From: Spirochaetaceae bacterium
GTDB taxonomy: Bacteria; Spirochaetota; Spirochaetia; SZUA-6; Bin103
Length of the DNA stretch: 36,590 nt
Direction of reading: 5' to 3'
Assembly (NCBI GenBank): GCA_028821475.1
Contig: JAPPGB010000140.1
Location: 1 to 36,590 of the forward strand
Shown here: piece after piece, positions 1,282 to 22,218 of the stretch
Layout of the letters: each line of letters begins with the position of its first letter
Numbering within the stretch: position 1 is the stretch's first letter
The notes under the pieces: generated by a model
Databases searched by the model: none
What the model was told of the DNA's origin: nothing
What the model saw: only the letters and a program-made list of their open reading frames with translations
Translations under genes and position numbers: made by a program

Positions 1282-1373
1282 CCCGAGGTTGCAGGGATGG
1301 AGACGGCAGGTAGTTGCTACACCGGCTGCGGAACGCCCGGACCCGATGGCTCGGACGAGAGGGGGGAGTCGTC

Positions 1374-3158
1374 ATGAAGCCGGACAAGCTGGCGGATTCG
1401 TCCGACGCCGGGAGTTTCACCCCGTTGCACAGAGCGGTGTTGGGCGGTCGCTTGCAGGAGGCGAAGAGGTTGCTGAACTGCGGCGCGGATGTCGACGAGA
1501 GGTTGGCAGGGCTCGGATGGACGCCGTTGTACATGGCCGCGGTACTGAGCGAATCCCCCAACCTGCTGGCGCTGCTGTTGGACCACGGCGCCGACGTGGA
1601 GGTGCGGGACTATCATGGCGCCACCGCGCTGCACGGTGCGGTGGAGTCGCGCAGGAGCCCGTGGGTGGTGGCATTGTTGCTCGACCACGGGGCCGACGTC
1701 GGCGCCAAGGACGAGGAGGGTCATACGCCGCTGCGGACGGCGGCGCGGTGGGCCACCGACCCCGAGGTGGTGGCGCTGCTGTTGGACCGCGGCGCGGACC
1801 TCACTGAGCGGGATTCGGAGGGCTTTACTCCGCTGCACGCGGCGGTGCGCCTCGGCCGGCAACCGCAGGTGGTGTCGTTGCTGCTGGATCGTGGTGCAGA
1901 CCTCCACGAGCGTTCCGAGACCGGCTCGACGACGTTGCAGATGGCGGCCTTCGTCGGCGCGGGACCAGCCGTGGTGAAGGTGTTGCTGGAACGGGGAGCG
2001 GACGTGAACGCATCGAGCAGACACGGCGAGACCGCGTTGCACGCGGTGGCGGGCGGGTGCCAGGATCCGGCGGTTGCGGCGTTGTTGCTGGACCACGGCG
2101 CCGACCTGGAAGCGCGCACTTCCGGCGGCGGGACGCCGCTGCACTTTGCGGTGCGAAAAGACGCGAAGACGGAACTACTACAGGTGCTGCTGGACCGCGG
2201 CGCGAATCCGAACGCACGCGGCAACGATGGCGGCACGCCGTTGCACGTGGCGGCGCAGGGAAGCGGGAATCCCGCCGTGGTGCCGCTGTTGCTGCGCCAC
2301 GGCGCTAGCGTCGATGTTCGAGCGCAGTTCGGCTGGACGCCGTTGCACGTGGCAGCCGCATGGAACCGGGACCCGGACGAGGTGGCGCGGCTGCTGGACC
2401 GCGGCGCGCTTCTCGAAGCTCGTACCGACGATGGACGGACACCGCTGCACGCGGCTGCGATCTGCGCCAATCAGCAGGCGATGGCGATATTGCTCAAGCA
2501 TGGAGCGGACATCCGCGCGCGGGCGTCAAACGGACGTGAACCGCTGCACGCCGCGGTAGAGAAGGAAGGTACCCCGGAGGGGGTGGCACTGCTGCTGGAC
2601 CACGGCGCGGACATCCGGGCACGCGACCATGATGACCGCACAGCGCTGCACATGGCAGCGCAGGCGAACTCGAACCCGCAGGTAACGGCGCTTCTGCTGG
2701 ACCGAGGCGCCGACATCACCGCGCGCGACGTTGTGGGCCAACAGCCGCTGCACGTGGCGGCCGGGACGAGCGGAAACCCGGAGGTGGTGGAGGTACTACT
2801 GAAGCGCGCTGCCGATCCCAACACTCGCGCCGTAGCCGGCTGGACGCCACTGCACGTGGCCGCCGGATGGACCAGCTTTCCGGAGGTGGTGCGACTGCTG
2901 CTGGAGCACGGCGCGGATCTGGAGGGGCAGACCGATGCCGGTCAGACTCCTCTGCACACGGCGGTCATGATCGGCCACCATCCGCAGGTGGTGGAGACAT
3001 TGCTCGACCGCGGCGCCGATCGTCGGATGCCGGACTACATCAGGTGGTCCCTCGCGGAATCGGTGCATCGGAACAAGAGCCTCCGCGACAGCGAGCTCGA
3101 CCGGCGCCTGCAGGACGATGAGTCGCACATCCGAGTCGAGCGGCCGGCCGGTCGATAG
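1374..3158 (+). CDS. Ankyrin-repeat protein, 16 repeats
   Basis: The 594-residue protein is almost entirely ankyrin repeats. I count 16 TPLH-type repeat starts (FTPLHRAV, WTPLYMAA, ATALHGAV and so on to QTPLHTAV). Most units are 34 residues rather than the usual 33, because of one extra residue in the loop before the second helix (for example GNPEVVEVLLKRAAD). A charged tail of about 45 residues closes the protein. There is no signal peptide or membrane segment, so a cytosolic or non-classically secreted protein-binding scaffold is likely. The ATG at 1374 is chosen because a strong GGGGGGAG ribosome binding site sits at 1361-1368; an upstream in-frame start at 1314 has none. The partner is unknown. 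Near-identical neighbouring repeats point to growth by internal duplication. Bacterial ankyrin proteins can target hosts, but nothing here shows that. Confidence 0.92.
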   Translation: MKPDKLADSSDAGSFTPLHRAVLGGRLQEAKRLLNCGADVDERLAGLGWTPLYMAAVLSESPNLLALLLDHGADVEVRDYHGATALHGAVESRRSPWVVALLLDHGADVGAKDEEGHTPLRTAARWATDPEVVALLLDRGADLTERDSEGFTPLHAAVRLGRQPQVVSLLLDRGADLHERSETGSTTLQMAAFVGAGPAVVKVLLERGADVNASSRHGETALHAVAGGCQDPAVAALLLDHGADLEARTSGGGTPLHFAVRKDAKTELLQVLLDRGANPNARGNDGGTPLHVAAQGSGNPAVVPLLLRHGASVDVRAQFGWTPLHVAAAWNRDPDEVARLLDRGALLEARTDDGRTPLHAAAICANQQAMAILLKHGADIRARASNGREPLHAAVEKEGTPEGVALLLDHGADIRARDHDDRTALHMAAQANSNPQVTALLLDRGADITARDVVGQQPLHVAAGTSGNPEVVEVLLKRAADPNTRAVAGWTPLHVAAGWTSFPEVVRLLLEHGADLEGQTDAGQTPLHTAVMIGHHPQVVETLLDRGADRRMPDYIRWSLAESVHRNKSLRDSELDRRLQDDESHIRVERPAGR

Positions 3159-6865: not shown

Positions 6866-7327
6866 ATGGCACGCGCGACCGGCGCAGGCACGTTCGGCGT
6901 CGCCGTCAAGGCCGCGATCGTGCGTGGGCCGCGGCTGCTGGTGCTCTACAAGACGCCCGATGAGGCCCGCTCCGGTCCTGATCCCGATGTCAGGCTCGAT
7001 CTACCCGGCGGCCGGATCGAGTTCGGCGAGTCGCCGGCCGCGGCCCTGCGGCGCGAGGTCGCCGAGGAGACGTGGTTGCGGATCGAGCCGGTTGGCCCGC
7101 TCCACGTCTGGCACTACGTGAAGGAACGATTCCAGCTCGTGGGGATCGACTACCTGTGCGAGTACCGGTCCGGCGAGGTGATGTTGAGCGATGAGCACGT
7201 CGGATTCCGGTGGCTCACCGAGGAAGAACTCCGCCGACTCCACCCGGAGGAGCGACGGCAGTTCGCCGCAGCCTTCCGGTGCGGCCTCCGCCGGAATCTG
7301 TCTATTAATACATCTAATTTGATTTAG
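6866..7327 (+). CDS. Nudix hydrolase with variant Nudix box
   Basis: A 153-residue protein with one Nudix domain, which normally hydrolyses a nucleoside diphosphate linked to another group, using Mg2+ or Mn2+. The box starts at Gly49 (GRIEFGE) and continues REVAEETWL. All the Glu and Arg residues of the Gx5Ex7REUxEExGU pattern are present (Glu55, Arg63, Glu64, Glu67, Glu68), but the late Gly is Trp70. Metal ligands are kept, so activity is still expected. The ATG lies 4 nt after the aldo/keto reductase stop, implying coupling. The last codons (SINTSNLI) are markedly AT-rich compared with the rest, as if the 3' end were joined to the AT-rich spacer that follows. The substrate is unknown. Confidence 0.85.
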   Translation: MARATGAGTFGVAVKAAIVRGPRLLVLYKTPDEARSGPDPDVRLDLPGGRIEFGESPAAALRREVAEETWLRIEPVGPLHVWHYVKERFQLVGIDYLCEYRSGEVMLSDEHVGFRWLTEEELRRLHPEERRQFAAAFRCGLRRNLSINTSNLI

Positions 7328-7477
7328 AATGACTAATCCTCCTCAGAATACATCAATAAAGATTTCTAAATAAGCCACACCGGTTGACGTCCCCGTCTCC
7401 TTTGATCATCTTATAAGAAGAAATAGATGATTCCTTAAGGCCGATAATTGCCTGAAACGAATCGGAGTCTTTATGTT
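7328..7477. other. AT-rich intergenic stretch upstream of hipBA
   Basis: These 150 bp, and the last 30 bp or so of the Nudix gene, are strikingly AT-rich against the surrounding sequence. They hold two short perfect palindromes, CTTATAAG (7410-7417) and CCTTAAGG (7433-7440), and a -10-like GATAAT (7443-7448), with no convincing -35. No E. coli-type HipB operator (TATCC-N8-GGATA) is present. The composition suggests a junction of acquired DNA or an autoregulated toxin-antitoxin promoter. Confidence 0.5.
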
Positions 7478-7834
7478 ATGAGGATTTCCCCCCACACCAC
7501 CGACAGCGCGGCGATGCAGGAGTTGGGCACCCGAATTGCCCGCCATCGCCTGAACCGCAATCTCACCCAGGCAACGCTCGCCGCCGAGGCGGGGGTGTCG
7601 GTGCCCACCGTGCAGCGCCTGGAGCAGGGCAAGTCGTGTCAGGCCTCCAGCCTGATCCGGATCCTGCGCGCCCTCAAGTTCCTGGAACATCTCGACGGCC
7701 TCGTCCCCGAGCCACCGGCGAGCCCGATGCAGCAGCTCAGAATGAGCGGCAAGCTGCGCCGCCGAGCGTCCTCACCGGGCGCCACTCACATCCGTGAGCG
7801 CCTCGCGGCCTGGACCTGGGGCGATGAGCCATGA
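7478..7834 (+). CDS. hipB: HipB-like antitoxin, XRE-family HTH regulator
   Basis: A 118-residue protein with one XRE/Cro helix-turn-helix: LGTRIARHRLNRNLTQATLAAEAGVSVPTVQRLEQGK-type spacing lies in its N-terminal half (turn helix AGVSVPTVQRLEQG). It is expected to bind DNA, repress its own operon, and neutralise the HipA kinase next door. The ATG at 7478 is chosen over an alternative TTG at 7448; a GGAG at 7464-7467 lies about 10 nt upstream. The stop overlaps the hipA start in an ATGA (7831-7834), the usual antitoxin-first arrangement. The C-terminal basic stretch (GKLRRRASS) could contact DNA or HipA. An AT-rich leader precedes it. Confidence 0.85.
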   Translation: MRISPHTTDSAAMQELGTRIARHRLNRNLTQATLAAEAGVSVPTVQRLEQGKSCQASSLIRILRALKFLEHLDGLVPEPPASPMQQLRMSGKLRRRASSPGATHIRERLAAWTWGDEP

Positions 7835-9132
7835 CGGTGGCCGAAGCGCGAATGTGGGGTACCACGATCGGCGCCGTGACCTGGGATGACGAACGTGGTT
7901 GCGCCGCCTTCGAGTATGCGCCGGCCTTCCTGCCGAGTGGCCGGCAGGTTGCCCCGCTCACGATGCCGCTGGCCGCCGGCATCTACTCCTTCCCCGCACT
8001 GGCGCGGGAGACGTTCCACGGACTTCCTGGACTCCTTGCCGACTCGCTCCCCGATCGCTTCGGCAACGCACTCATCGACGCCTGGCTGACCGCACAGGGT
8101 CGTCGTCCGGGCGACTTCAGTCCGGTGGAACGGCTCTGTTACGTCGGCGAGCGCGGCATGGGCGCCCTGGAGTTCGTACCCGCCACCGGCCCCGACCATC
8201 GACAGTCCGCGGTGGAGGTGGCGGCACTCGTCGACCTGGCCGGTGAGATACTCACGAACCGGAGCAATCTCGCCGGCTCGTTCACCGCGCCCCGGCGGCA
8301 GCAGGCGCTGCAGAGCATCCTCCGGGTGGGCACTTCCGCCGGCGGCGCCCGCGCCAAGGCGGTCATCGCATGGAATCCCGCCACCGGCGAGGTGCGTTCC
8401 GGGCAGGTCTCCGCCGGCGACGGGTTTTCCTACTGGCTGCTGAAGTTCGACGGCGTAGCCGGGAACCGCGACCGCGAGCTCGAGGATCCGCGAGGCTACG
8501 GACTGATCGAATACGCCTACCACCTGATGGCTCGGGCCGCCGGCATCACCATGGCCGATTGCCGAATCCTGAGCGAAGGCGGGCGCAATCACTTCATGAC
8601 CAGGCGCTTCGACCGAACCGCGGCAGGCGACAAGATTCACCTGCTGTCGCTCGGCGCGATGGCGCACTACGACTTCAACCAGGCCGGCGCCCACTCCTAC
8701 GAGCAGGCGCTCCGCGTGATCGAACAACTGGAGATTGGCAAGGAGGCAGTGGAGGAGCAGTTCCGCCGCATGGCGTTCAACGTGGTCGCTCGCAACCAGG
8801 ACGACCACGTCAAGAACATCGCGTTCCTGATGGATCGGTCGGGGCGCTGGTCGCTCGCACCCGCATTCGACGTCACCTATAGCTACAACCCATCAGGACC
8901 CTGGACCGGCGTTCACCAGATGTCCCTGAACGGCAAACGCGACGGCTTCGCGGGAGACGACTTCGTCGCTTGCGCGCGCAACGCCGCCATGAAGCGTGGC
9001 CGAGCCTCCGACATTCTTGGCCAGGTCGGAGAGGCCGTGCGGCGCTGGCCGGAGTTCGCCGGGCAGGCAGGAGTGCCGGGTGCCGTGGCCGCAAACATCG
9101 CCGCGGTGCATCGTCTCGATGTCGTGGGATGA
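7831..9132 (+). CDS. hipA: HipA-like serine/threonine kinase toxin
   Basis: A 433-residue HipA-family kinase, full length for the family (about 440). The N-terminal HipA_N domain contains LPGLLADSLPDRFGNALI. The kinase-like core shows the mobile loop RVGTSAGGARAKA (region of the autophosphorylated Ser in E. coli HipA), the ATP-binding lysine in YWLLKFD, the catalytic loop FNVVARNQDDHVKN (Asp and Asn), and the metal-binding APAFDVTYSY. In E. coli the kinase phosphorylates glutamyl-tRNA synthetase and causes dormancy; targets of other HipA proteins vary. The ATG overlaps the hipB stop by 4 nt, so the two are translationally coupled. No truncation or lost catalytic residue is seen, so the module is probably functional. 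Confidence 0.93.
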   Translation: MTVAEARMWGTTIGAVTWDDERGCAAFEYAPAFLPSGRQVAPLTMPLAAGIYSFPALARETFHGLPGLLADSLPDRFGNALIDAWLTAQGRRPGDFSPVERLCYVGERGMGALEFVPATGPDHRQSAVEVAALVDLAGEILTNRSNLAGSFTAPRRQQALQSILRVGTSAGGARAKAVIAWNPATGEVRSGQVSAGDGFSYWLLKFDGVAGNRDRELEDPRGYGLIEYAYHLMARAAGITMADCRILSEGGRNHFMTRRFDRTAAGDKIHLLSLGAMAHYDFNQAGAHSYEQALRVIEQLEIGKEAVEEQFRRMAFNVVARNQDDHVKNIAFLMDRSGRWSLAPAFDVTYSYNPSGPWTGVHQMSLNGKRDGFAGDDFVACARNAAMKRGRASDILGQVGEAVRRWPEFAGQAGVPGAVAANIAAVHRLDVVG

Positions 9133-11980: not shown

Positions 11981-13264
11981 ATGCGCATCTGCGTCGTCGC
12001 TCTCGGCACCCACGGGGACGTTCGTCCGTTGCTCGCCCTCGCCGAGGGGCTGAGCCGCGCCGGTGAACAGGTTCTGTTCGCGACCCATCGCTATTTCGAG
12101 AAGATGGTAACCGACCGCGGGCTCGGCTTCCGCGCCGTCGAGGTCAATCCACGCGATATCATCGACAGCCGCCTCGGCCGCGGCTGGGTGCGCAGCGGCA
12201 CCAACCCGCTGTTGTTCATCCGCCACTTCCGGGAACTCGCGCTCTCCTTCGGCCGGGAATTGATGGACGACTGCTACCGCGCATGTCGCGACGCCGAGGC
12301 GATCGTGACCGGACTGCTCGGTTACTTCGCCGCCTGGAACCTTGCGGAGCGGCTCGAGGTACCGTTGGCCGCGGCGTTCCTGCAGCCGGCCACTCCGAGC
12401 AGGCACCTGCCGTCGGTTTTCTTCCAGGAATTGCCGGGACCGGCGCAGGTGCGCCGCACGTACAATTACGCCAGCCACCGGCTGGTCGAGTTTCTGCTCT
12501 GGAACGTGCTGCGTCCGCCCACCAACGCGGTACGAGCCGACATCCTGGACCTGCCCCCGGCGCCGCGGCGGCACACGTTCGCTGCCAACCTGCGCGGCAG
12601 TCTTCTGCTGTACGGGTTCAGCCCGGCGGTGCTGCCGCGCCCGTCGGACTGGGACGACCACGTCCAGGTGACCGGCTACTGGTTCCTGGATGAGGAAGGC
12701 GACGGCTGGCACCCGGACGCACAGTTGCAGCGCTTCCTCGCCGGCGGCGCGCCGCCGGTGTACGTCGGTTTCGGCAGCATGAGCAGCGACGGCGAAGAGG
12801 ACCTCACCGGCATCGTGTTCAGCGCGCTGCGCCGCTGCCGGCTGCGCGGCGTGCTGGCGACCGGCTGGGGCGGCCTTACCCCGGCGCAGCTTCCGCCCGA
12901 CATGCTGATGCTCGACTGGGTGCCGCACGACTGGCTGTTTCCCCGCACGGCCGCGGTAATCCATCACGGCGGCGCCGGCACCACCGCCACCGGCCTGCGC
13001 CACGGCGTGCCGCAGGTGGTGGTGCCGTTCTTCGGCGATCAACACTTCTGGGGCAGTCGGGTGCACGAACTGGCAGTGGGGCCGCCGCCGGTGCCGCGGC
13101 GGCGGCTCACCGCCGACCGGCTGGCGGACGCGCTGTGCAGCGCCGCCTCCGATCCGTCGGTGCGCGCCCGCGCCGCCGAGATAGGGGCCCGAATCAGGAC
13201 CGAGGATGGCGTGTCGACGGCGGTTTGCGCACTCCGGCGCCGCCTGCACGGGCGGTTGTCGTGA
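11981..13264 (+). CDS. UGT-like glycosyltransferase (GT1, sterol/macrolide glucosyltransferase type)
   Basis: A 427-residue GT-B glycosyltransferase of the UDP-glucuronosyl/glucosyltransferase (GT1/GT28-like) superfamily. The N-terminal acceptor domain starts MRICVVALGTHGDVRPLLAL, the signature of sterol- and macrolide-glucosyltransferase types. The C-terminal donor domain has VGFGSMSS and the sugar-nucleotide motif HHGGAGTTATGLRHGVPQVV, followed by FFGDQHFW. It is expected to transfer a hexose from UDP- or dTDP-sugar to a hydrophobic hydroxylated acceptor at the cytoplasmic face. The ATG at 11981 begins the first strand. Its stop overlaps the next gene's GTG start (GTGA, 13261-13264). With the lipid-type genes that follow, a glycolipid product is a reasonable hypothesis; the acceptor is not known. 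Confidence 0.88.
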   Translation: MRICVVALGTHGDVRPLLALAEGLSRAGEQVLFATHRYFEKMVTDRGLGFRAVEVNPRDIIDSRLGRGWVRSGTNPLLFIRHFRELALSFGRELMDDCYRACRDAEAIVTGLLGYFAAWNLAERLEVPLAAAFLQPATPSRHLPSVFFQELPGPAQVRRTYNYASHRLVEFLLWNVLRPPTNAVRADILDLPPAPRRHTFAANLRGSLLLYGFSPAVLPRPSDWDDHVQVTGYWFLDEEGDGWHPDAQLQRFLAGGAPPVYVGFGSMSSDGEEDLTGIVFSALRRCRLRGVLATGWGGLTPAQLPPDMLMLDWVPHDWLFPRTAAVIHHGGAGTTATGLRHGVPQVVVPFFGDQHFWGSRVHELAVGPPPVPRRRLTADRLADALCSAASDPSVRARAAEIGARIRTEDGVSTAVCALRRRLHGRLS

Positions 13265-14340
13265 CGGCAAGGCGGCGCAGCGAACCGGACCGTCCGTCGG
13301 CGCTGGTCACCGGCGCCTCCGGCATGATCGGCGGCGAAGTGGCCGCCCAACTCGCCGCCGCGGGCCATCGCGTGCGCTGCCTGCTGCGCCCGTCGAGCGG
13401 GCCGCCGGCCGTCCGCCACCCCAACATCGAGGTGCTGCGCGCCGACCTGTCCGACCACGTTGCCGTCGCCGCCGCCCTGCGCGGCGTGGTCCGGGTGTTC
13501 CACGTTGCCGGTTATCTGCACGCCGGCGCGCCGTTCAGCGCCGGCGAAGAGTATGCGCCCTATCGCGCCGCCAACGTGGATCTGACCGAACGCATGCTCG
13601 CCGCGAGCGCCGATGCCGGCGTGCGGCGGTTCGTGTTCGCCAGCACCACCGGCGTCTATCGCGCCGGCGCGGCGTCCCCGATCGGTGAGCACAGCCCGCT
13701 GGCGCCGCTGTCCGCCTACGGGCGCTCCAAGGTGGAAGCCGAAGGCGTGGTGCGCGAGTACGGCGGGCGCGGGCTGAGTTACACGATCGTGCGGCCAAGC
13801 GCCACCTACGGGCCGGGCGACCGCCACTTCCTGCCCGCCGCGCTGGCCATGGCGCGCATGCGGCGCGTTCCGCTGGTGGACGGCGGCCGCCACCTGGTGG
13901 ACTTCGGATACGTGAGCGATGTCGCGCGCCTGATGGTGCAGGCGGCGGGCGCTCCGGCGGCGGATGGCGCCACCTACAACGCCGCCACCGGCAATCCGCA
14001 GCCGCTGCGCGCCCTGTTCGACGTGCATGCGGAACTCACCGGACAGTCTTCCCCGGCCATCGTGCCGGTGCCGGCCGGCTTGTGCCGTCTGCTCGGGCCG
14101 CTGCTGCCGGCGGCGGTGCGGTTGCTCGCCCCCGGCATGAGCGCCATGGTGACGCGCGACGCGCTGGCCTACCTCTCACGCGACGTGTTCTACGACATGA
14201 GCCGCTCCTACCGCGACTTCGGGTTTCAACCGGAAATCGACTTCCGCGCCGGGCTGGCGCTGGTGCTGGCAGCCGGAGGCTTGAGCACAACCGGGATCCC
14301 GAGATCCGCGAACAGCAGATCCGCGGATCAGAATTCGTAG
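13261..14340 (+). CDS. NAD(P)-dependent epimerase/3-beta-HSD-type extended SDR
   Basis: A 359-residue extended SDR. The Rossmann loop is LVTGASGMIGGEVAA (near residues 15-29), and the active-site pair is Tyr153/Lys157 (YGRSK) with FASTTGVY supplying Ser/Thr. VRPSATYGPGDRHFLP and DFGYVSDVARLM are typical of 3-beta-hydroxysteroid dehydrogenase, dihydroflavonol reductase and OleD-type ketoacyl reductases. The GTG start at 13261 overlaps the glycosyltransferase stop, so translation is coupled. The end runs 13 bp into the convergent ketoacyl-synthase gene. The last 20 or so residues (PRSANSRSADQNS) are low in structure and lie over a short repeated GATCCGCG sequence. It likely reduces a beta-keto or keto lipid intermediate before glycosylation; the substrate is inferred from context only. 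Confidence 0.85.
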   Translation: MTARRRSEPDRPSALVTGASGMIGGEVAAQLAAAGHRVRCLLRPSSGPPAVRHPNIEVLRADLSDHVAVAAALRGVVRVFHVAGYLHAGAPFSAGEEYAPYRAANVDLTERMLAASADAGVRRFVFASTTGVYRAGAASPIGEHSPLAPLSAYGRSKVEAEGVVREYGGRGLSYTIVRPSATYGPGDRHFLPAALAMARMRRVPLVDGGRHLVDFGYVSDVARLMVQAAGAPAADGATYNAATGNPQPLRALFDVHAELTGQSSPAIVPVPAGLCRLLGPLLPAAVRLLAPGMSAMVTRDALAYLSRDVFYDMSRSYRDFGFQPEIDFRAGLALVLAAGGLSTTGIPRSANSRSADQNS

Positions 14341-16316
14341 GTGGCGCAGGCGACCTCGATGCCGGCGCCGGCGGCAAGAAACAGTCCCATGCTTCCCGGC
14401 GGAACCACGCGCTCGCCGGCCGCTTCCCAGCCCGCGGCCGGAGCGGCCGTAAACAGGTTGCCGCCGCCGCACGACACGAACCTGCTGGGCTCGACGCCGA
14501 GCACGTCCGCCAGCCGGTCCAGGAACTCCGGCCCGAGTTGCGGCGGAAAGATCACCGCAAAATCGTCCAGGGAAACACGCTCCCGGCGCAGCAACTCCGT
14601 CACGCTCTCCGCCACCGCCTCCGGCAGCCTCTCGGCGAGCCGGTGGTCGCATTCCACGCGCAGACGCGGCGGCCCCGAGTCGTCCGTATATGCGTATGCG
14701 TGGTACCAGTCCAGGTACTCGGCATGCGTTTCGACGAAAAAACTGCGGAAGCCGGTCCGTCCGGAACTGCGTTCCAGCACCAGGGCGGAGCCGGCACTGG
14801 CCAGTCCCAGCGGCGGCTGGCCGTCGACCGGGGTTTCGTTGAACTCCGAGGCGGCGACCACCGCCACGCAGTCGCGCGACAGCAGCATGCGGCCGGCCAC
14901 CTGGCACGCCATCAACACGCCGGGCGGTCCATTCATCAGGTCGAACGCCAGAAACGGCGGCGCGTCCTGGTCGACGCGCGACCCCTTGATGCCCAGCTCC
15001 TTGGCCACCATGGTGGCCAGCGCCGGTTCGGAGATGAACGCCTCGCGGTACACTCCCGAGTACACCAGCAGCCCCGGCTGGCCGGCCGGCGCGTTCGGGG
15101 CGTCCAGGGCACGCCGTACCGCACGCGCGGCGAGCGTGACGTTGCCGCGTTCGGCATCCGACTCCGGTGTAGACGTGGCCGCCGCCCTCACCCGCACGCG
15201 CTCGCCCGCGGGAACGGCGCGGTAGTAGCCGCGCGCGGCGTTGTCCGCCGCGGCTGCCGGTGGCGGCTCCGGCGCCGGCCGGCCGTTCGCCATGCGGGCG
15301 GCGAACTGCTCGACGCGATACTGAGCGAGGCCCACGGTAATCCCGGACGCAGTGATGCTGAACAACACGCGATCTCCCGGTTGCAACGCGGACCTTTCGA
15401 CCAGGTCCTTGACCGCTACCCAGTGCGAAGTGGTTGCCGTGTTGCCGCGGTGCCGCAGGTTATCCACCATGTTGTCCGAATGGCAGACGCGGCGTCCAAG
15501 ACGGCGATTGGTGGCGCGCGTGGCCTCCTTGATCGAGTTGGAGGAGGTCTGGTGCGGAATGAAGTAGCGCGGTTCGGTGGTTACCCTGCCCGACTCCGCG
15601 ACATTTTCGTACTGGGTGACAACCTCGGCTATGCCGGCGCGAGCGAGGCGGACCGAGTCGGTGAACATGATCGCCCCGTGCGACTCGGCAGAGTGGGCAA
15701 TGCACAACTCGGCGTGCTCCGGGACGGTGTAGATATCGATGTAGTCGAAGCCCGCGCCGTGCTCGAGCAGCAGGCACACGCCGGCATCCCCGAGCGTCAG
15801 GCACGCCAGCCGTTCGTCGTGCAGCCCGTGCAGTTCGCGCTGCGCGGTGGCGGTGAGGTGGGTGATGTACTCGCCGCTGACCACCAGCGCGCGGCGCACG
15901 TCACCGCGCCGAATCAGCTCGTCCACCGCCATGATCGCCGTGAAAACGCCGGCGCACGCGTTGCTGAGATCGAAGGCAAGGGCGCGGTGCAGGCCGAACC
16001 GGCGGCGCAGCACCGCGGCGGTGGTCGGCTCGACGTTGTAGACAAGCGGCGAATCCTGCTTGGAGATATTGGCCGCGACGATCAGGTCGATATCCGCCGC
16101 GCCATGACGCGACCCGGCGAGGCACCTCGCTACCGCGTTGTGGGCCAAGTGGACGGAAAACTCGGTCTCGCCGGCCATGCGCCGGCTGCGAATGCCGGTC
16201 AGGCGTTCCAGGGGAATCAACACGCGTCGCCGGCAGCCCTTTACCACTTCGGTGGTGGTCACTTCCCGTTCGGGAAGATAGACGCCGAGGCTCTCGACGC
16301 TGGTGTTCGCGGTCAC
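14328..16316 (-). CDS. Tandem ketoacyl synthase III (FabH/OleA-like) with degenerate second domain
   Basis: 662 residues, twice the length of a normal KAS III. The first half (about 1-340) has the complete Cys-His-Asn triad: Cys121 in DLSNACAGVF, His255 in FIPHQTSSNS, Asn292 in HRGNTATTS. After a Pro/Ala-rich linker (about 345-360) the second half repeats the thiolase fold. There the Cys position is Pro464 (DLMNGPPGVL) and the His position is Pro592 (IFPPQLGP); only Asn620 (GGGNLF) remains. The first domain should condense acyl-CoA/ACP units (Claisen condensation), and the second may be structural or partner-binding. The GTG start at 16316 is supported by GGAGG (complement 16323-16327), 6-nt spacing. 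It is divergent from the LuxE-like gene and convergent with the SDR. Confidence 0.85.
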   Translation of the reverse strand: MTANTSVESLGVYLPEREVTTTEVVKGCRRRVLIPLERLTGIRSRRMAGETEFSVHLAHNAVARCLAGSRHGAADIDLIVAANISKQDSPLVYNVEPTTAAVLRRRFGLHRALAFDLSNACAGVFTAIMAVDELIRRGDVRRALVVSGEYITHLTATAQRELHGLHDERLACLTLGDAGVCLLLEHGAGFDYIDIYTVPEHAELCIAHSAESHGAIMFTDSVRLARAGIAEVVTQYENVAESGRVTTEPRYFIPHQTSSNSIKEATRATNRRLGRRVCHSDNMVDNLRHRGNTATTSHWVAVKDLVERSALQPGDRVLFSITASGITVGLAQYRVEQFAARMANGRPAPEPPPAAAADNAARGYYRAVPAGERVRVRAAATSTPESDAERGNVTLAARAVRRALDAPNAPAGQPGLLVYSGVYREAFISEPALATMVAKELGIKGSRVDQDAPPFLAFDLMNGPPGVLMACQVAGRMLLSRDCVAVVAASEFNETPVDGQPPLGLASAGSALVLERSSGRTGFRSFFVETHAEYLDWYHAYAYTDDSGPPRLRVECDHRLAERLPEAVAESVTELLRRERVSLDDFAVIFPPQLGPEFLDRLADVLGVEPSRFVSCGGGNLFTAAPAAGWEAAGERVVPPGSMGLFLAAGAGIEVACATYEF

Positions 16317-16412
16317 GCTGCGCCTCCGGGTCGGCGCGTGGTCATGTTCAATAGCTACATCCTTAGCGGGCACACTGGCACGATCCGCCGCTGCGCCACT
16401 CCGAGCGGCCCG

Positions 16413-16442
16413 TTGACCGGGAAGGGCCAACCTGTGTAGTTT
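16413..16442 (+). promoter_or_regulatory. Candidate promoter of the LuxE-LuxC-like operon
   Basis: TTGACC (16413-16418), an 18-nt spacer and TAGTTT (16437-16442) stand 21 nt before the ATG at 16464. The spacer to the divergent ketoacyl-synthase gene is only 147 bp, so the two directions may be controlled together. No clear Shine-Dalgarno sequence precedes the ATG. Confidence 0.45.
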
Positions 16443-16463
16443 GGCGCGCCGGCATCGCGGCCC

Positions 16464-17876
16464 ATGTCTGACCACCACGCCGAAATACGCGCGCTCCACC
16501 TGCAACTCACGGCCCTCGCCATGCGCTGGGCGATGAGCGGTACGGTAGACGAGGATTATGCGCGTAAACTGCGCTTCGCGGCAATCCGCACCAATCATCG
16601 GCACTACTACGATCGTGTTCCGATCTATCGCCGGCTCGCCGACCAGGCAGAGGTGCCGCGCGACGCCGACACGGCGCAGATCGCCGCCGAAATGATGTCC
16701 ACCGACCACATCTTCAAGTCGTATCCCCAGGAATACATCGACAACAAGGACTACGGCGCCATGAATGGCTGGCTGCGGCAGGTGTTCGACCGTCCCGTGG
16801 AAGCGGACGTCGACGGCGTGATGTCGATCGACCAATGGCTCGCCCGCCTGGCGCAGAACGGCATCCATACCGTATTCAGTTCCGGCACCAGCGGGCACAT
16901 TTCGTTCGTCGCGCGGGATGCGTACACCTGGTCGCAGCTTACCGGGCTCGGCGTGTCCTACATTCCGCTGTTTCAGATGCGCCAGGGCGCCGCGCGGGCC
17001 TGGGAACGCACCGCCGCCCGCACCGCGGCGCGCATGCTCGGGCCGGACGGCTTTGGCGAGTTCTTCCGGCGCCGCGGCCTGCGCGGCTTCGACGGCGTAT
17101 TTCTGTCGTTCTCCGGCGGCACCCAGGGTACGCAGGTGGTGGGGCAGACCCTCGCCCGGATGGTCGGGCGCGCGACTTTCCTGTTCGACCTGGATCTGTC
17201 GGCGACGGTGGTGCGCGCGCTGGTGCGCGGTCCGGCCGACGAGCGCGAACGGCAGCTCTCCGATGCGTTCCTGGACGCCACCGTTCGGCGCCGGACCGAC
17301 AACTTCCGGCGCGTGCTGGCCGCGCTGCGCGACTCGACCGCCGCGCGCCGCCGAACACTGCTGTTCGGCGCCCCGTTCATGATCAAGGAGTTCTGCGAGT
17401 GGCTGGTGGCGGAGGGCGAGGAAGTGGTGCTGCGGGCGGGCAGCATGCTCTCTCACGGCGGCGGCTGGAAAAGCTTCGAAGGCGACCGGATCGACGAGCC
17501 GGCGTTCCTGGCGCTGATCGAGCAGAGCCTGGGCGTCCGCCCCGAGTGCGTCAACGAGGGTTACTCGATGACCGAGGCACAGGTCGTGTTCCCGCGCTGC
17601 CGCGAGGGCCGCTTCCACGTGCCGCCGATTACCGAGACCGTGATCTTCGACGAGGCCCTGGAGCCGGTGACCGGAGACGACGTCCATGGCGGCTTCGGGT
17701 TCCTCGATCCGTATGCCGCTTGCTATCCGGGATTCATCATCACCGGCGACAACGTGCGGCGCCGCGTCGGCGGTTGCCCGTGCGGGATGGACGGCGTGAC
17801 GATTTCGGATATCGGGCGCGCCACCGGACGGGAGGTAAAAGGCTGCGGCGGCATCATGGCCGCCATGCAGGGCTGA
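16464..17876 (+). CDS. LuxE/PaaK-family acyl-protein synthetase
   Basis: A 470-residue member of the ANL adenylate-forming superfamily, LuxE branch. LuxE activates a long-chain fatty acid with ATP and hands the acyl group to the LuxC reductase. The phosphate-binding motif SSGTSG lies at residues 139-144. Downstream are LFGAPFMIKEF, LSHGGGWKSFEG, and the adenylate region NEGYSMTEAQVVFPRC, followed by ITGDNVRRR. The length exceeds Vibrio LuxE (about 370-380), mainly through a longer N-terminal part. The ATG at 16464 is used and the LuxC-like gene begins 9 nt after the stop, so they form a tight pair. No luciferase genes are seen, so the role is fatty aldehyde formation for something other than light. 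A coenzyme-A ligase role is the alternative. Confidence 0.85.
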   Translation: MSDHHAEIRALHLQLTALAMRWAMSGTVDEDYARKLRFAAIRTNHRHYYDRVPIYRRLADQAEVPRDADTAQIAAEMMSTDHIFKSYPQEYIDNKDYGAMNGWLRQVFDRPVEADVDGVMSIDQWLARLAQNGIHTVFSSGTSGHISFVARDAYTWSQLTGLGVSYIPLFQMRQGAARAWERTAARTAARMLGPDGFGEFFRRRGLRGFDGVFLSFSGGTQGTQVVGQTLARMVGRATFLFDLDLSATVVRALVRGPADERERQLSDAFLDATVRRRTDNFRRVLAALRDSTAARRRTLLFGAPFMIKEFCEWLVAEGEEVVLRAGSMLSHGGGWKSFEGDRIDEPAFLALIEQSLGVRPECVNEGYSMTEAQVVFPRCREGRFHVPPITETVIFDEALEPVTGDDVHGGFGFLDPYAACYPGFIITGDNVRRRVGGCPCGMDGVTISDIGRATGREVKGCGGIMAAMQG

Positions 17877-17885
17877 CCGCGGCGC

Positions 17886-19493
17886 ATGGACGAGCCGACC
17901 ATCGCAGCCGATGACGACGGCGTAATCTCGGTACCGGCGCTGGTGCGCGGCACCCTGGTCGCGCCGCCGGCGATCGGCAAGCGGGAGATCGAGACCGCCT
18001 TCGCGGCGGAAGACCGGCAGCGCGCCGGCGGCGATCCGCCGACCCTGGTCCGACTGAACGGGGCGTGGGTGCTGCGTGAGCCGGTACTGGACCGCGGCTC
18101 GATGCGCGCCACCGGCGCCTGGCAGTACCAGGTGCTGCCGGCGGTGACGCCGCTCGACCTGGTGGAGGACGATCTCGACGCGCTCGCCGCCGGGCTGTAC
18201 GACCTCGAATTCGGCGACGTGCTGCGCTACGTGGACGGGCTGCAGCAGGCGTACGGCGCCGACGCGGAGTTGCTGCGGCAGGTAAAGGAGTGGGTGCGCG
18301 CGACGTCGGAGGCACCCGATCCCTACGTGGAAGCGGGTTTCGCGATGTTCCCGGTGATGCTTGCGGGCGCCGTTGCCGAGACCATGGTGGACACCGATCT
18401 GGCAACCTGGGAGATTCCCGGGCGCCGCTTCCTGGACGGCTGGGTGGAGGTGCCGGGCACCGTGTATCCCGCTCCCGTGCACCTGATCCACGCCCAGCAT
18501 CTGCCGCCGATCGCCGGTTACGACGCCGCAGCAGCGGTGCCGCGCCTGCGCGCCCTGCCCACGCGCCAGCTCCACATCACCGCCGGCAACTCGCCGCTGG
18601 TACCGTTGGCCTCGCTCCTGCGCGCCCTGTGGACCAAGTCGGCCGCGACCATCAAGCTGCCGTATGGCGCCACCCTGGCCGGCGCCTACCTGGCCCTGCT
18701 GGCCGCGCGCACGTTCCCCGATCATCCGCTTACGCGCCACCTGTCGGTGCTGTACTGGCCGGGCGGCGACGAGCAGTTCGAGACGCCGCTGTTCCTGCCG
18801 GGCCGCTACGACCGCATCGTGGTGTGGGGCGCCCCGGGCGCGGTGCTGTCGGTGCGCGAGCGCGCCGCCTTCACCAAGACCGTGACCTTCAACCCGCGCT
18901 ACGGCGTAAGCCTGATCGGACGCGAGGCGTTCGACGACCTGCCGCAGGTGGTGGGCCGCGCGGTGTGCGACACGCTGATCCAAAGCCAGAAGGCGTGCAT
19001 CGCCTCGCAGATCCACTACCTGGAGGCGGACCAGGCGGGCGCCGAGCGCTACGCCGCCGCGCTGCGCGACGAGCTCGGGCGCTGGGACCGCTTCGCGCCG
19101 GCCGCGCTGAGCCGGAGCCAGCAGGGGCAGATCCGGCGCATGAAGCGAGGCAGCTTCCTGGGCGCCACCTGGTTCGAGAACCGCGCCGACGGCGAGTTCC
19201 ACTCCGCGGTGGCGGTGATGCCGCAGGAGTTCAACATCACCGAGCACCCGCTGTGCCGGCTCATCGTGGTCCGCCCGGTGGCCAGCCTGGAGCGGGCGCT
19301 GCGCTTCCTGCATCCCGGCGTGGCTACCGCGGGGGTGTTTCCCGAGGCGCGCCGACGCGAGCTTGCGGTGCGGATCGCGGCGCGCGGCGTGAGCAACGTG
19401 CCGCCGCTCGGCCAGGCCGGCTACACCTACCCCGGCATGCCGCACGACGGCATGCTGGTGCTCAGCGAGCTGGTCGACTGGAAGACCGGCTAG
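17886..19493 (+). CDS. LuxC-like long-chain acyl-CoA/acyl-protein reductase
   Basis: A 535-residue LuxC-family reductase, which reduces an enzyme-bound acyl thioester to a fatty aldehyde with NADPH. The family fold of an aldehyde dehydrogenase is visible: LHITAGNSPLVPLASLLRA-type substrate region, IVVWGAPGA in the cofactor domain, and the candidate catalytic Cys371 in QSQKACIASQ. The tail NVPPLGQAGYTYPGMPHDGM matches the LuxC end region. It is about 55 residues longer than Vibrio LuxC, mainly N-terminal. The ATG at 17886 lies 9 nt after the LuxE-like stop, without a clear ribosome binding site, suggesting coupling. Its TAG stop and that of the convergent OleD-like gene share the tetranucleotide CTAG (19490-19493). 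Confidence 0.87.
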   Translation: MDEPTIAADDDGVISVPALVRGTLVAPPAIGKREIETAFAAEDRQRAGGDPPTLVRLNGAWVLREPVLDRGSMRATGAWQYQVLPAVTPLDLVEDDLDALAAGLYDLEFGDVLRYVDGLQQAYGADAELLRQVKEWVRATSEAPDPYVEAGFAMFPVMLAGAVAETMVDTDLATWEIPGRRFLDGWVEVPGTVYPAPVHLIHAQHLPPIAGYDAAAAVPRLRALPTRQLHITAGNSPLVPLASLLRALWTKSAATIKLPYGATLAGAYLALLAARTFPDHPLTRHLSVLYWPGGDEQFETPLFLPGRYDRIVVWGAPGAVLSVRERAAFTKTVTFNPRYGVSLIGREAFDDLPQVVGRAVCDTLIQSQKACIASQIHYLEADQAGAERYAAALRDELGRWDRFAPAALSRSQQGQIRRMKRGSFLGATWFENRADGEFHSAVAVMPQEFNITEHPLCRLIVVRPVASLERALRFLHPGVATAGVFPEARRRELAVRIAARGVSNVPPLGQAGYTYPGMPHDGMLVLSELVDWKTG

Positions 19494-20509
19494 CCGTGGT
19501 GACCGCCGACTGCTGCGCCGCCGGTCTGCCACCACCGCGCGAGCCGGACCAGGCCCTCGTCTATCGAAACCGGCGGCCGGTAGCCGAGGTCGCGGCGCGC
19601 GGCGCCTATGTCGAACCAGTGCGACGAAGAGATCTCGCGCACCAGGAAGCGGGTCAGCGGCGGCGCCGCCGTGCGCCCCGAGATCCGGTACGCGCCCTCC
19701 ACGGCGCCGGCCGCCGCCAGCGCCAGCCAGCGCGGTACCTGCCGGCGCACCTGCGCCACGCCGGCCATGTTGAGCAGGCGGCCGACGAACTGCCACAGGT
19801 CCACCGGCTCGCCCTGCGAAATGAAGTAGGCGCGGCCGGCCGCGGCTCCGCCGGGTGACAGGGCGTCGAGTGCCAGCAGGTGCGCCTCGGCGGCGCAGTC
19901 GATGTAGGTCACGTCGACGCGGAACGGGCCGCGCCCCACGCGCACCAGCCGGCCCGCGCGCGCACGGGCGATCAGCTCCGGCACCAAGTGCGCGTCGCCC
20001 GGCCCCCACACCAAGTGGGGCCGCAGCGCCGTGGTAGCCAGGGCGCCGCCGTTGGCGGCCAGAACCACGCGTTCGGCCTCGGCCTTGGTGCGCGCGTAGG
20101 GCGAGTCGTAGCGCCGCGGGTAGGGAACCGACTCGTCGACTCCGCACAGGTCATGGCCGCCGAACACCACGCTCGGCGAACTGGTGAACACCAGCCGCGG
20201 CACGCCATGGGCGCGGCAGCCGGCGACAATGGCCTCCGTGCCGCCCACGTTCACGGTGCGGTAGCGGTGTGCCGGCTCGGCGAGGCCGGGGATCAGCGCC
20301 GCCGCGTGCACCACCGCGTCGCAGCCGGCGCACGCGGAGGCGGCAGCGCGCGGGTCGGCCAGATCGCCACGCACCACTTCCACCCCGCGGGCCGCCAGTT
20401 CCGGGTAGGCCGACCGCGCAAAGCAGCGCACCAGGTAGCCGCGGGCAAGCAGCCGCTCGACGACGGCGCGGCCGACGAACCCGCCGCCGCCCGTTACCAG
20501 GACTCGCAT
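19490..20509 (-). CDS. OleD-like 2-alkyl-3-ketoacid reductase / 3-beta-HSD-family SDR
   Basis: A 339-residue extended SDR strikingly like OleD of the bacterial olefin pathway, which reduces the beta-keto acid made by OleA. Diagnostic strings as I recall them for OleD are all present: the start MRVLVTGGGGFVG, TSSPSVVFGG, DESVPYPRRYDSPYARTKAEAE-type segment with Tyr138/Lys142, ALRPHLVWGPGD, VDVTYIDCAAEAHL, and AYFISQGEPVDLW. The ATG at 20509 has a GGGGGT upstream. No OleB hydrolase or OleC ligase is seen in the window, so a complete olefin pathway is not shown. The membrane protein gene at 20597-21040 lies upstream on the same strand and may share its transcript. Other 3-beta-HSD-type substrates remain possible. 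Confidence 0.85.
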   Translation of the reverse strand: MRVLVTGGGGFVGRAVVERLLARGYLVRCFARSAYPELAARGVEVVRGDLADPRAAASACAGCDAVVHAAALIPGLAEPAHRYRTVNVGGTEAIVAGCRAHGVPRLVFTSSPSVVFGGHDLCGVDESVPYPRRYDSPYARTKAEAERVVLAANGGALATTALRPHLVWGPGDAHLVPELIARARAGRLVRVGRGPFRVDVTYIDCAAEAHLLALDALSPGGAAAGRAYFISQGEPVDLWQFVGRLLNMAGVAQVRRQVPRWLALAAAGAVEGAYRISGRTAAPPLTRFLVREISSSHWFDIGAARRDLGYRPPVSIDEGLVRLARWWQTGGAAVGGHHG

Positions 20510-20596
20510 CGCACCCCCGGGCGGCGACCGCCGCCGACTCGAGCGCCGCTCGCGGGCCGCGCCGGGCTCGTCGCGCAGGCGGAGCGCATCCCCCGG

Positions 20597-21040
20597 TTAC
20601 CCCGAGCGCTCCCGCACCGACTGCCGGTAAGTGGCGAACAGGAACCAGCAGATCAGCAGGTTGGCCGGCAGGGTGAACAGCAGCGCGGCGGTGCCGAACG
20701 GCGTCACCTGCTCCGCGAACGCCAGCCACGTCCAGTCGGCGAACAGCTCGCTGAGCCGGATGCCGCATACCAGTACCAGCCAGTGGGGAGTGGTGCGCCA
20801 GCGCGGCAGCGCCAGCACCTGCACGACCGTGAACGCCACCCAGATCGCTCCGGTGCGCCGCAGCAGACCGGCCGGATCCACGTGCTCGGCGTCGTGCAGC
20901 ACCCGGTACCAGAGCTGCGGAAACAGGAATGCGCCGACTGCCACGACGAGGTCGAACACGATCAGGGCGATCAGCACGGTGTCGACGAATCGGGCGCGGC
21001 GGCCGCTGACCGGCGTGCGCCCGGCCGGAGATGCGGTCAT
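20597..21040 (-). CDS. Small integral membrane protein, unknown function
   Basis: 147 residues with four predicted membrane segments, at about 21-41, 64-78, 86-100 and 115-136, and a short charged C-terminal tail. No family is recognised. The ATG at 21040 lies 10 nt downstream of a perfect -10-like TATACT (complement at 21051-21056), so the transcript may be leaderless; no Shine-Dalgarno sequence is visible. It is divergent from the IdnD-like gene and upstream of the OleD-like reductase (87-bp gap), so it may be part of the lipid locus. Tyr/Trp-rich loops between segments (LFPQLWYRVLHDAEH) resemble small DUF-type membrane proteins, but I cannot name one. Confidence 0.7.
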   Translation of the reverse strand: MTASPAGRTPVSGRRARFVDTVLIALIVFDLVVAVGAFLFPQLWYRVLHDAEHVDPAGLLRRTGAIWVAFTVVQVLALPRWRTTPHWLVLVCGIRLSELFADWTWLAFAEQVTPFGTAALLFTLPANLLICWFLFATYRQSVRERSG

Positions 21041-21056: not shown

Positions 21057-21125
21057 CGCGCAAACGCGGCCACTTGCGGTCGCACGCCGGGCCGGTAGCA
21101 GCGGTCGCGTGGCGGGCGCGGCTGG

Positions 21126-21133
21126 TATAGAGT
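21126..21133 (+). promoter_or_regulatory. -10-like TATAGAGT, 8-10 nt before the IdnD-like ATG
   Basis: TATAGA (21126-21131) or the overlapping TAGAGT (21128-21133) lies 10 or 8 nt before the ATG at 21142. No strong -35 or Shine-Dalgarno sequence is seen, though GGGCGG is purine-rich. Confidence 0.35.
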
Positions 21134-21141
21134 GGGCGGCG

Positions 21142-22218
21142 ATGCACGCATGGGTATTGCACGGCACGCGCGATCTGCGCCGTGAACTGCGCCCCGACCC
21201 GCGGCCGGACGACCACGAGGTGCTGGTGCGCGTGGAGCGGGTGGGCATCTGCGGCAGCGACATTCACTACTATCGGCACGGGCGGGTCGGCGCGTTCGTG
21301 CCGTCCCGCCCGTTCATACTCGGCCACGAGTTCGCCGGCGAGGTGGTCGCGGTCGGGCGTGCGGCCGGCGGCATCGCGGTCGGCGACCGGGTGGCGGTGG
21401 ACCCGTCGCGGGCGTGCCTGCGCTGTCCGTGGTGCCGTCGCGGGCGCTCCAATCTGTGCCCGCAGATGCGCTACTTCGGCAGCGCCGCCACCGATCCGCC
21501 CACCGACGGTGTGCTGTGCGACCTGAAGGCTGTCCCGGCGGCCAACTGCTACCGGCTCGGTGACGACCTGAGCTACGCGGAGGGCGCGTTGCTGGAGCCG
21601 CTGGCGGTCGCCTGCCACGCCGTGCTGCGCGCGGACGGCGTCGCCGGCAAGGTGGTGGCGGTGAGCGGTGCCGGCACCATCGGCCTGCTGGTGGCCACGG
21701 TGGCGCGCGCGCTCGGCGCCGTCCGGGTGGTGGTGAGCGACCCGCGAGGTGCGGCGCGAGAGGCGGCCGCCGCCCGTGCCGACGCGGTGCTCGATCCCGG
21801 CGACGAACGGGCGTCCGCGATGGCGATGGCGAACGGCGGCGCCCCGGAGGTGACCTTCGAGGCCGCCGGCGCCGAGGCATCGTTCCGGTGGGCGCTGCAG
21901 CACACCGCCGCCGGCGGAACGGTGGTGCAGATCGGCACCCTGCAGCAACCGTTCGCGGCGTCGCTCAACACCATCATGACGCGCGAGCTGCGCGTGGTCG
22001 GATCGTTCCGCTTTGCCGGCGCCTTTCGGGTCGGCGCGGCGCTGCTCGCCGGGCGCCGCATCGAAGTCGAGTCGCTGATCACCGGCGTCATGCCGATGGC
22101 CGAAACGGCTGCCGCGGTGCAACGGGCGAGCAGCGATGCGGCAACGATCAAGCTGCACGTCAGCCGCGCCGGGCACGCGTCGAAACGTGTACAACCGGTA
22201 CCGATTTCGGCGCCGTGA
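21142..22218 (+). CDS. Zinc-dependent alcohol dehydrogenase, L-idonate 5-dehydrogenase-like
   Basis: A 358-residue medium-chain dehydrogenase. The catalytic zinc site is shown by GICGSDIHYYRHG and GHEFAGEVVAVG. The structural zinc site is the four-Cys cluster in SRACLRCPWCRRGRSNLC. The Rossmann loop is SGAGTIGLLVA. The local strings DPSRAC, MRYFGSAA and EPLAVACHAVLRA most resemble L-idonate 5-dehydrogenase (IdnD), which oxidises L-idonate to 5-keto-D-gluconate, but sorbitol or other polyols are possible. It is expected to be cytosolic. The ATG at 21142 is chosen at the first beta strand. With the mannonate-dehydratase-like enzyme it supports use of sugar acids. The last 20 residues (HASKRVQPVPISAP) look less conserved. 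Confidence 0.85.
   Translation: MHAWVLHGTRDLRRELRPDPRPDDHEVLVRVERVGICGSDIHYYRHGRVGAFVPSRPFILGHEFAGEVVAVGRAAGGIAVGDRVAVDPSRACLRCPWCRRGRSNLCPQMRYFGSAATDPPTDGVLCDLKAVPAANCYRLGDDLSYAEGALLEPLAVACHAVLRADGVAGKVVAVSGAGTIGLLVATVARALGAVRVVVSDPRGAAREAAAARADAVLDPGDERASAMAMANGGAPEVTFEAAGAEASFRWALQHTAAGGTVVQIGTLQQPFAASLNTIMTRELRVVGSFRFAGAFRVGAALLAGRRIEVESLITGVMPMAETAAAVQRASSDAATIKLHVSRAGHASKRVQPVPISAP

Follow-up and report, generated by a model that had tools for sequence, protein, structure and literature searches.

The window analysed here is the whole contig JAPPGB010000140.1 (36,590 nucleotides) of a Spirochaetaceae bacterium, taken from a 5.73-Mb assembly that is 95.7% complete (G000). A minus-strand gene at 14328-16316 codes for a protein of 662 amino acids, here called dKAS, which by its sequence is a natural fusion of LstA-LstB-type subunits (KAS III-A and KAS III-B) of the OleA family. 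Together with an OleD-like 2-alkyl-3-oxoalkanoate reductase of the SDR family (19490-20509, minus strand) it makes up an OleC-free, fused variant of the Ole/Lst system. A LuxE-like acyl-protein synthetase (16464-17876) and a LuxC-like acyl reductase (17886-19493), both on the plus strand, are found between these two genes. We give a probability of roughly 40% to a reading in which the four proteins carry out a head-to-head condensation of the Ole/Lst type with a changed final activation. The known ends of the Ole/Lst route are olefins or beta-lactones, including lipstatin, the source of tetrahydrolipstatin. If the reading is true, diversion of the 2-alkyl-3-hydroxy acid to an aldehyde or a diol would be a third kind of end product.

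The first domain of dKAS holds the triad Cys121/His255/Asn292 and the pair E96-P97. In the second domain Pro is found at both the Cys and the His column while E430-P431 is kept; as this domain is without the catalytic Cys, the protein would consist of one active and one degenerate domain. The same pattern runs through the alignment of related proteins. The Cys-His-Asn triad is kept in all 26 fused and all 64 split A domains, and Glu is present in 88 of 88 B domains (26 fused, 62 split), none of which has Cys at the catalytic column. The Glu column is Phe or Leu in seven KAS III controls (FabH and other KAS III). LstA and LstB are known to form an obligate heterodimer, with C128/H271/N305 in LstA and an essential E60 in LstB (PMC12141560), and the base of OleA is Glu117 of the partner subunit, followed by Pro and experimentally essential (PMC7064751). 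dKAS is confidently predicted to fold as a single unit with two thiolase-type domains (mean pLDDT 83, pTM 0.90), and the best PDB matches of the model include FabH and OleA, each over one domain. Among annotated plasmid records, the nearest relatives of dKAS are adjacent gene pairs in Streptomyces and Rhodococcus, consisting of an active KAS III followed by a 'hypothetical' or KAS III-like protein. Two of the three plasmid records inspected continue with a fatty acid CoA ligase, an epimerase/dehydratase, a nonribosomal peptide synthetase (NRPS) and a formyltransferase, a content of the lipstatin-operon type. With these signature residues, a non-decarboxylative condensation of the OleA/LstAB type is very probably the chemistry of dKAS. 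A first-pass annotation of the window had listed a two-domain KAS III, which is real, but it had missed the minus strand, the degenerate second domain and the kinship with LstA-LstB.

The OleD-like protein has the YxxxK motif at Tyr138; its NF042422 score of 376 bits does not reach the equivalog cut-off (580). It is placed in a clade (support 0.93) with OleDs of KASIII-A/B-OleC-OleD clusters from another Spirochaetota class and from Bacteroidota; the same clade holds one further sequence from outside such a cluster. The dKAS signature and this grouping support synthesis of a 2-alkyl-3-hydroxy acid, and condensation plus ketoreduction to that acid is well supported. Acyl condensation followed by ketoreduction had been proposed in the first-pass annotation, and this part of it holds. 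The coding regions of dKAS and OleD are about 3.2 kb apart, and we consider it probable that the two proteins work in one pathway. Upstream of OleD, as also noted before, lies a gene for a 147-amino-acid membrane protein of unknown family (20597-21040, minus strand).

A protein search with a Streptomyces OleC/LstC homologue as query gave no OleC ortholog, either in the window or in the genome as a whole (95.7% complete). The candidates from the same genome were rejected, being at the level of generic acyl-CoA ligases. Complete clusters of KASIII-A/B, OleC and OleD are found in another class of the phylum (L034, L035, L037), which suggests olefin or beta-lactone lipids there. The proximity of OleD and DAPDH in a further genome (G025) was taken as incidental, the genes between them being unrelated.

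LuxE and LuxC are separated by a gap of 9 bp. Their Pfam scores are 73 bits (PF04443) and 132 bits (PF05893), so that the coupling of a LuxE-like to a LuxC-like gene stands as first annotated; against the NCBIfam equivalog cut-offs they reach 60 of 550 and 76 of 750 bits, respectively. The only significant PDB relative of LuxE is the LuxE chain 7xc6_E, and alignment with 7xc6 shows that SSGTSG at position 139 and the acyl-acceptor Cys461 are kept. The catalytic Cys371 of LuxC is aligned with the Cys of its PDB relative, the LuxC chain 7xc6_A. In a sample of 295 other genomes of the phylum no LuxC was found, and among the genomes of the order that were searched a close LuxC homologue is present only in G002, a sister genome of the same genus. 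The genes for dKAS and LuxE-LuxC diverge from a region of 147 bp in G000 and about 215 bp in G002. Within this region a palindrome, GTTGACC-n6-GGCCAAC (16412-16431), is found upstream of luxE with one mismatch in the window and is perfect in G002; matches elsewhere in the window are at chance level. It may be an operator.

In the proposed route, one acyl group would be loaded on Cys121 of domain 1, and Glu430 of domain 2 would deprotonate a second acyl thioester, giving a 2-alkyl-3-oxo acid by a non-decarboxylative Claisen condensation. This mechanism is carried over from OleA and LstAB, the signature residues being what was examined here. OleD, which was examined for family membership, would then reduce the ketone to give the 2-alkyl-3-hydroxy acid. 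At the third step LuxE and not OleC would adenylate the carboxylate and transfer it to Cys461, with no beta-lactone closure, after which LuxC would reduce it to the 2-alkyl-3-hydroxy aldehyde. We infer this step from the adjacency of the genes, their conserved residues and the lack of an OleC; LuxE could take the place of OleC here, since both would meet the same need for activation of the acid. The first-pass annotation had overlooked LuxE as a possible substitute. A dehydrogenase such as the zinc-dependent alcohol dehydrogenase at 21109-22218 (plus strand; PF08240), a candidate aldehyde reductase with a weak link to the locus, could finally lead to a 2-alkyl-1,3-diol, which the GT1 glycosyltransferase of the window (11981-13264) may speculatively glycosylate. 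The complete course, from a mycolate-like 2-alkyl-3-hydroxy acid through an aldehyde to a GT1-glycosylated 2-alkyl-1,3-diol, would be a previously undescribed lipid pathway, and we consider it rather unlikely. The product may be an undescribed branched fatty alcohol or glycolipid, and a condensing enzyme fused in a single gene would be on offer for engineering.

Compared with the lipstatin operon lstABCDEF of Streptomyces toxytricini and with oleACD systems of the beta-lactone type, the locus has the same Cys-His-Asn KAS III-A, the same degenerate KAS III-B with its essential Glu and the same OleD/LstD-type reductase. It differs in having A and B in one polypeptide and genes on both strands, and LuxE-LuxC adjoin it instead of LstC/OleC, NRPS and formyltransferase. 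The Glu-Pro signature of OleA and the OleD family are shared with the olefin-forming oleABCD of Xanthomonas and Micrococcus, where OleA is, however, a homodimer of identical subunits. The absence of OleC noted in the first-pass annotation holds for the window and, by the protein search, also for the genome; OleB and luciferase, which it had likewise not seen, were not separately searched for genome-wide. With the lux systems of luminous bacteria, in which LuxC and LuxE occur with LuxD, the locus shares families and catalytic residues, 7xc6 being the sole solved relative, whereas LuxA, LuxB and LuxD were not identified in the window and the scores are far below the NCBIfam cut-offs. A luxCDABE arrangement is not indicated, as no luciferase-family match was obtained among the window genes scanned. 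Neither standard lux nor standard ole thus explains the gene set, as had been stated before. No cluster of LuxC or LuxE with OleA, OleD or KAS III was described in the literature searched.

The fused form is not limited to this locus. A scan of genome contigs gave full-length fused relatives with 35-41% identity in Ktedonobacteria, Planctomycetota, Lentisphaeria, Bacteroidota, Mycobacterium and Nocardia. When the A and B domains are concatenated for tree building, all 26 fused sequences form one clade (support 0.85), with support 1.0 when one split Deltaproteobacteria pair is included, and the fused clade and the split KASIII-A/B pairs have a common ancestry. Those of the scanned proteins that come from Ktedonobacteria, Mycobacterium and Nocardia are C-A-T NRPS proteins with the di-domain at the C-terminus, whereas the Planctomycetota have the di-domain behind FAAL-ACP or C-A-T (examples of both kinds: L063:6503-12016, L061:6434-11995, L066:6680-11989, L059:6563-12043, L070:4421-12016, L071:6950-12013). 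The di-domain stands alone in Lentisphaeria, Bacteroidota and the genus of the window. The C-A-T-KAS-KAS proteins hence carry a di-domain of the same clade, but there it ends a megasynthase while here it is found by itself beside OleD and LuxE-LuxC. Such KAS-KAS tails are possibly an unusual assembly-line ending, and no description of C-A-T-KAS-KAS modules was found in the literature searched. The clade, with six phyla including that of the window, is of interest independently of this locus, as the tail position points to a little-studied release or extension of an NRPS product.

Several observations weigh against joining LuxE-LuxC to the condensing core. The locus is not one operon; at least four transcription units are present, namely GT1 with an extended SDR (plus), dKAS (minus), LuxE-LuxC (plus) and the membrane protein with OleD (minus). 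The genes that were first annotated as one locus are therefore all there, but not as a single operon. Among the genomes examined, LuxC, LuxE, dKAS and a close OleD occur together only in G000 and G002, i.e. in two genomes of one genus whose synteny extends to unrelated flanking genes. A further member of this genus, G001, has dKAS but neither LuxC nor a close OleD, though with a genome that is 81% complete and a contig of 7.2 kb. In the flanking DNA examined of other fused dKAS loci, LuxE, LuxC and OleD were found in 0 of 23 cases, and for the co-occurrence in related genomes that had been expected there is one sister genome and nothing outside the genus, which beyond the genus counts against the first-pass proposal by its own standard. 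In Actinomycetota and Proteobacteria, LuxC with an upstream partner of similar size turns up in unrelated settings. The placing of both LuxE-LuxC and GT1 in the same pathway, as claimed at first, is not borne out by these flanks or by the GT1 relatives, which occur elsewhere in the order.

An account that fits these observations takes the genes as neighbours and not as one pathway. The product of dKAS and OleD would be a 2-alkyl-3-hydroxy acid or the corresponding ketone. LuxE-LuxC, as an independently acquired module for turning a carboxylate into an aldehyde, would act on another acid, and GT1 with its SDR would glucosylate a sterol- or hopanoid-like alcohol. The varied contexts of LuxC and its partners elsewhere, the lack of co-occurrence in other fused-dKAS loci, the finding of LuxC in no more than 4 of the 48 genomes with KASIII-A/B, the commonness of GT1 relatives in the order and the separate transcription units all speak for it. 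Yet the dKAS family and close LuxC, both confined to the genus of the window among the relatives in the order that were searched, are divergently oriented at a distance of about 150 bp, and this account leaves no OleC to consume the product of OleD. We regard it as a serious contender, somewhat short of even odds. That dKAS and LuxE-LuxC belong to one pathway is possible but tentative, and our working hypothesis gives the coupling of LuxE-LuxC (and GT1) about the same chance as separate units side by side.

It is very unlikely that the locus belongs to a conventional Ole pathway, leading to a beta-lactone or an olefin, with its OleC (and OleB) encoded in the unassembled part of the genome. dKAS and OleD would be its usual first two steps, and complete KASIII-A/B-OleC-OleD clusters do exist in another class of the phylum, but the best OleC match in the genome has 27% identity, and this over part of the protein. 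In homologous clusters, moreover, OleC is within a few kb of OleD. Split loci have OleD in 33 of 65 and OleC in 22 of 65 cases, and no OleC was found in the flanking DNA of fused-dKAS loci at the threshold used. A similarly low probability is given to a system in which dKAS works without OleD, condensing a carrier- or enzyme-bound acyl group supplied by LuxE, with the OleD-like protein engaged in other metabolism. The di-domains fused to or following C-A-T or FAAL-ACP in Ktedonobacteria, Mycobacterium, Nocardia and Planctomycetota would fit, as would a Bacteroidota locus with a FAAL-type ligase divergent from dKAS, and LuxE is likewise an adenylating enzyme by family. The dKAS of the window, however, includes no carrier domain, and no gene for an ACP was identified beside it; in lux systems LuxE passes its acyl group on to LuxC, whose gene comes next in this locus, and OleD clusters with true Ole-type OleDs.

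The GT1 gene and the extended SDR (13261-14340, plus strand; PF01370) are possible members of the locus. They are coupled by a GTGA overlap at 13261, as first described, and GT1 scores 72 bits against PF06722. The nearest solved relative of GT1 is a yeast sterol 3-beta-glucosyltransferase (214 bits), a kinship that makes a hydrophobic acceptor plausible. Since relatives of GT1 are widespread within the order in other settings, its membership is uncertain. GT1-like genes adjoin KASIII-A/B at three further loci, two of them from Mycobacterium and one from Spirochaetota; in L034 a GT1 gene is found just upstream of the KASIII-A/B-OleC-OleD cluster. A common pathway for dKAS and GT1 is unlikely in our view. 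The ether-like lipid once suggested as product finds no backing, no ether-lipid gene being seen.

Plasmid-borne LuxC genes of Pseudonocardia, Paraburkholderia, Sphingobium and M. avium, in settings that vary, lie next to a gene for a protein of about 470 amino acids. These four neighbours have no Pfam match and are called LuxE-like by position and size; in a chromosomal Mycobacterium pair (L148), in contrast, the LuxE of the window itself aligns. In Kitasatospora sp. GAS204B (L084:9989-21900, L146) an lst-like operon is immediately followed by a LuxE gene and an 863-amino-acid frame matching LuxC. As support this adjacency is probably loose, given that the LuxE-LuxC pair of Kitasatospora GP82 is about 28 kb from LstA and LuxC of S. 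flavotricini about 240 kb away. A LuxE-LuxC cluster of O-antigen or flagellar glycan type was dropped because the window has no supporting genes.

Ratios of nonsynonymous to synonymous substitution rates against G002 are 0.12 for LuxE and LuxC, 0.16 for OleD and 0.17 for dKAS and GT1, which marks these as real genes under purifying selection. The membrane protein is 81% identical in the sister genome, and the alcohol dehydrogenase is a neighbour there too (83% identical). In the dKAS of G002 a duplicated segment around spurious G-runs (L018 4100-4300) causes an apparent frameshift, probably an assembly artefact. A plus-strand open reading frame at 14082-16439 is without any family match and was discarded as a shadow of the minus-strand dKAS. 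The minus-strand frame at 14328-20147 (1939 amino acids) is a read-through beyond the dKAS start and no gene; it runs opposite LuxE and LuxC, and automated gene prediction might put the start of dKAS in the wrong place.

The host DNA has a high GC content of 70%, and the host, a relative of two other spirochaete metagenome assemblies, is presumably marine. At 6866-9132 the window has NUDIX and HipA-like genes without counterpart in G002 (L017), where AKR adjoins UROD, and a possible insertion is indicated. An ankyrin-repeat protein of 614 amino acids is encoded at 1314-3158; ankyrin repeats are often present in host-associated bacteria.

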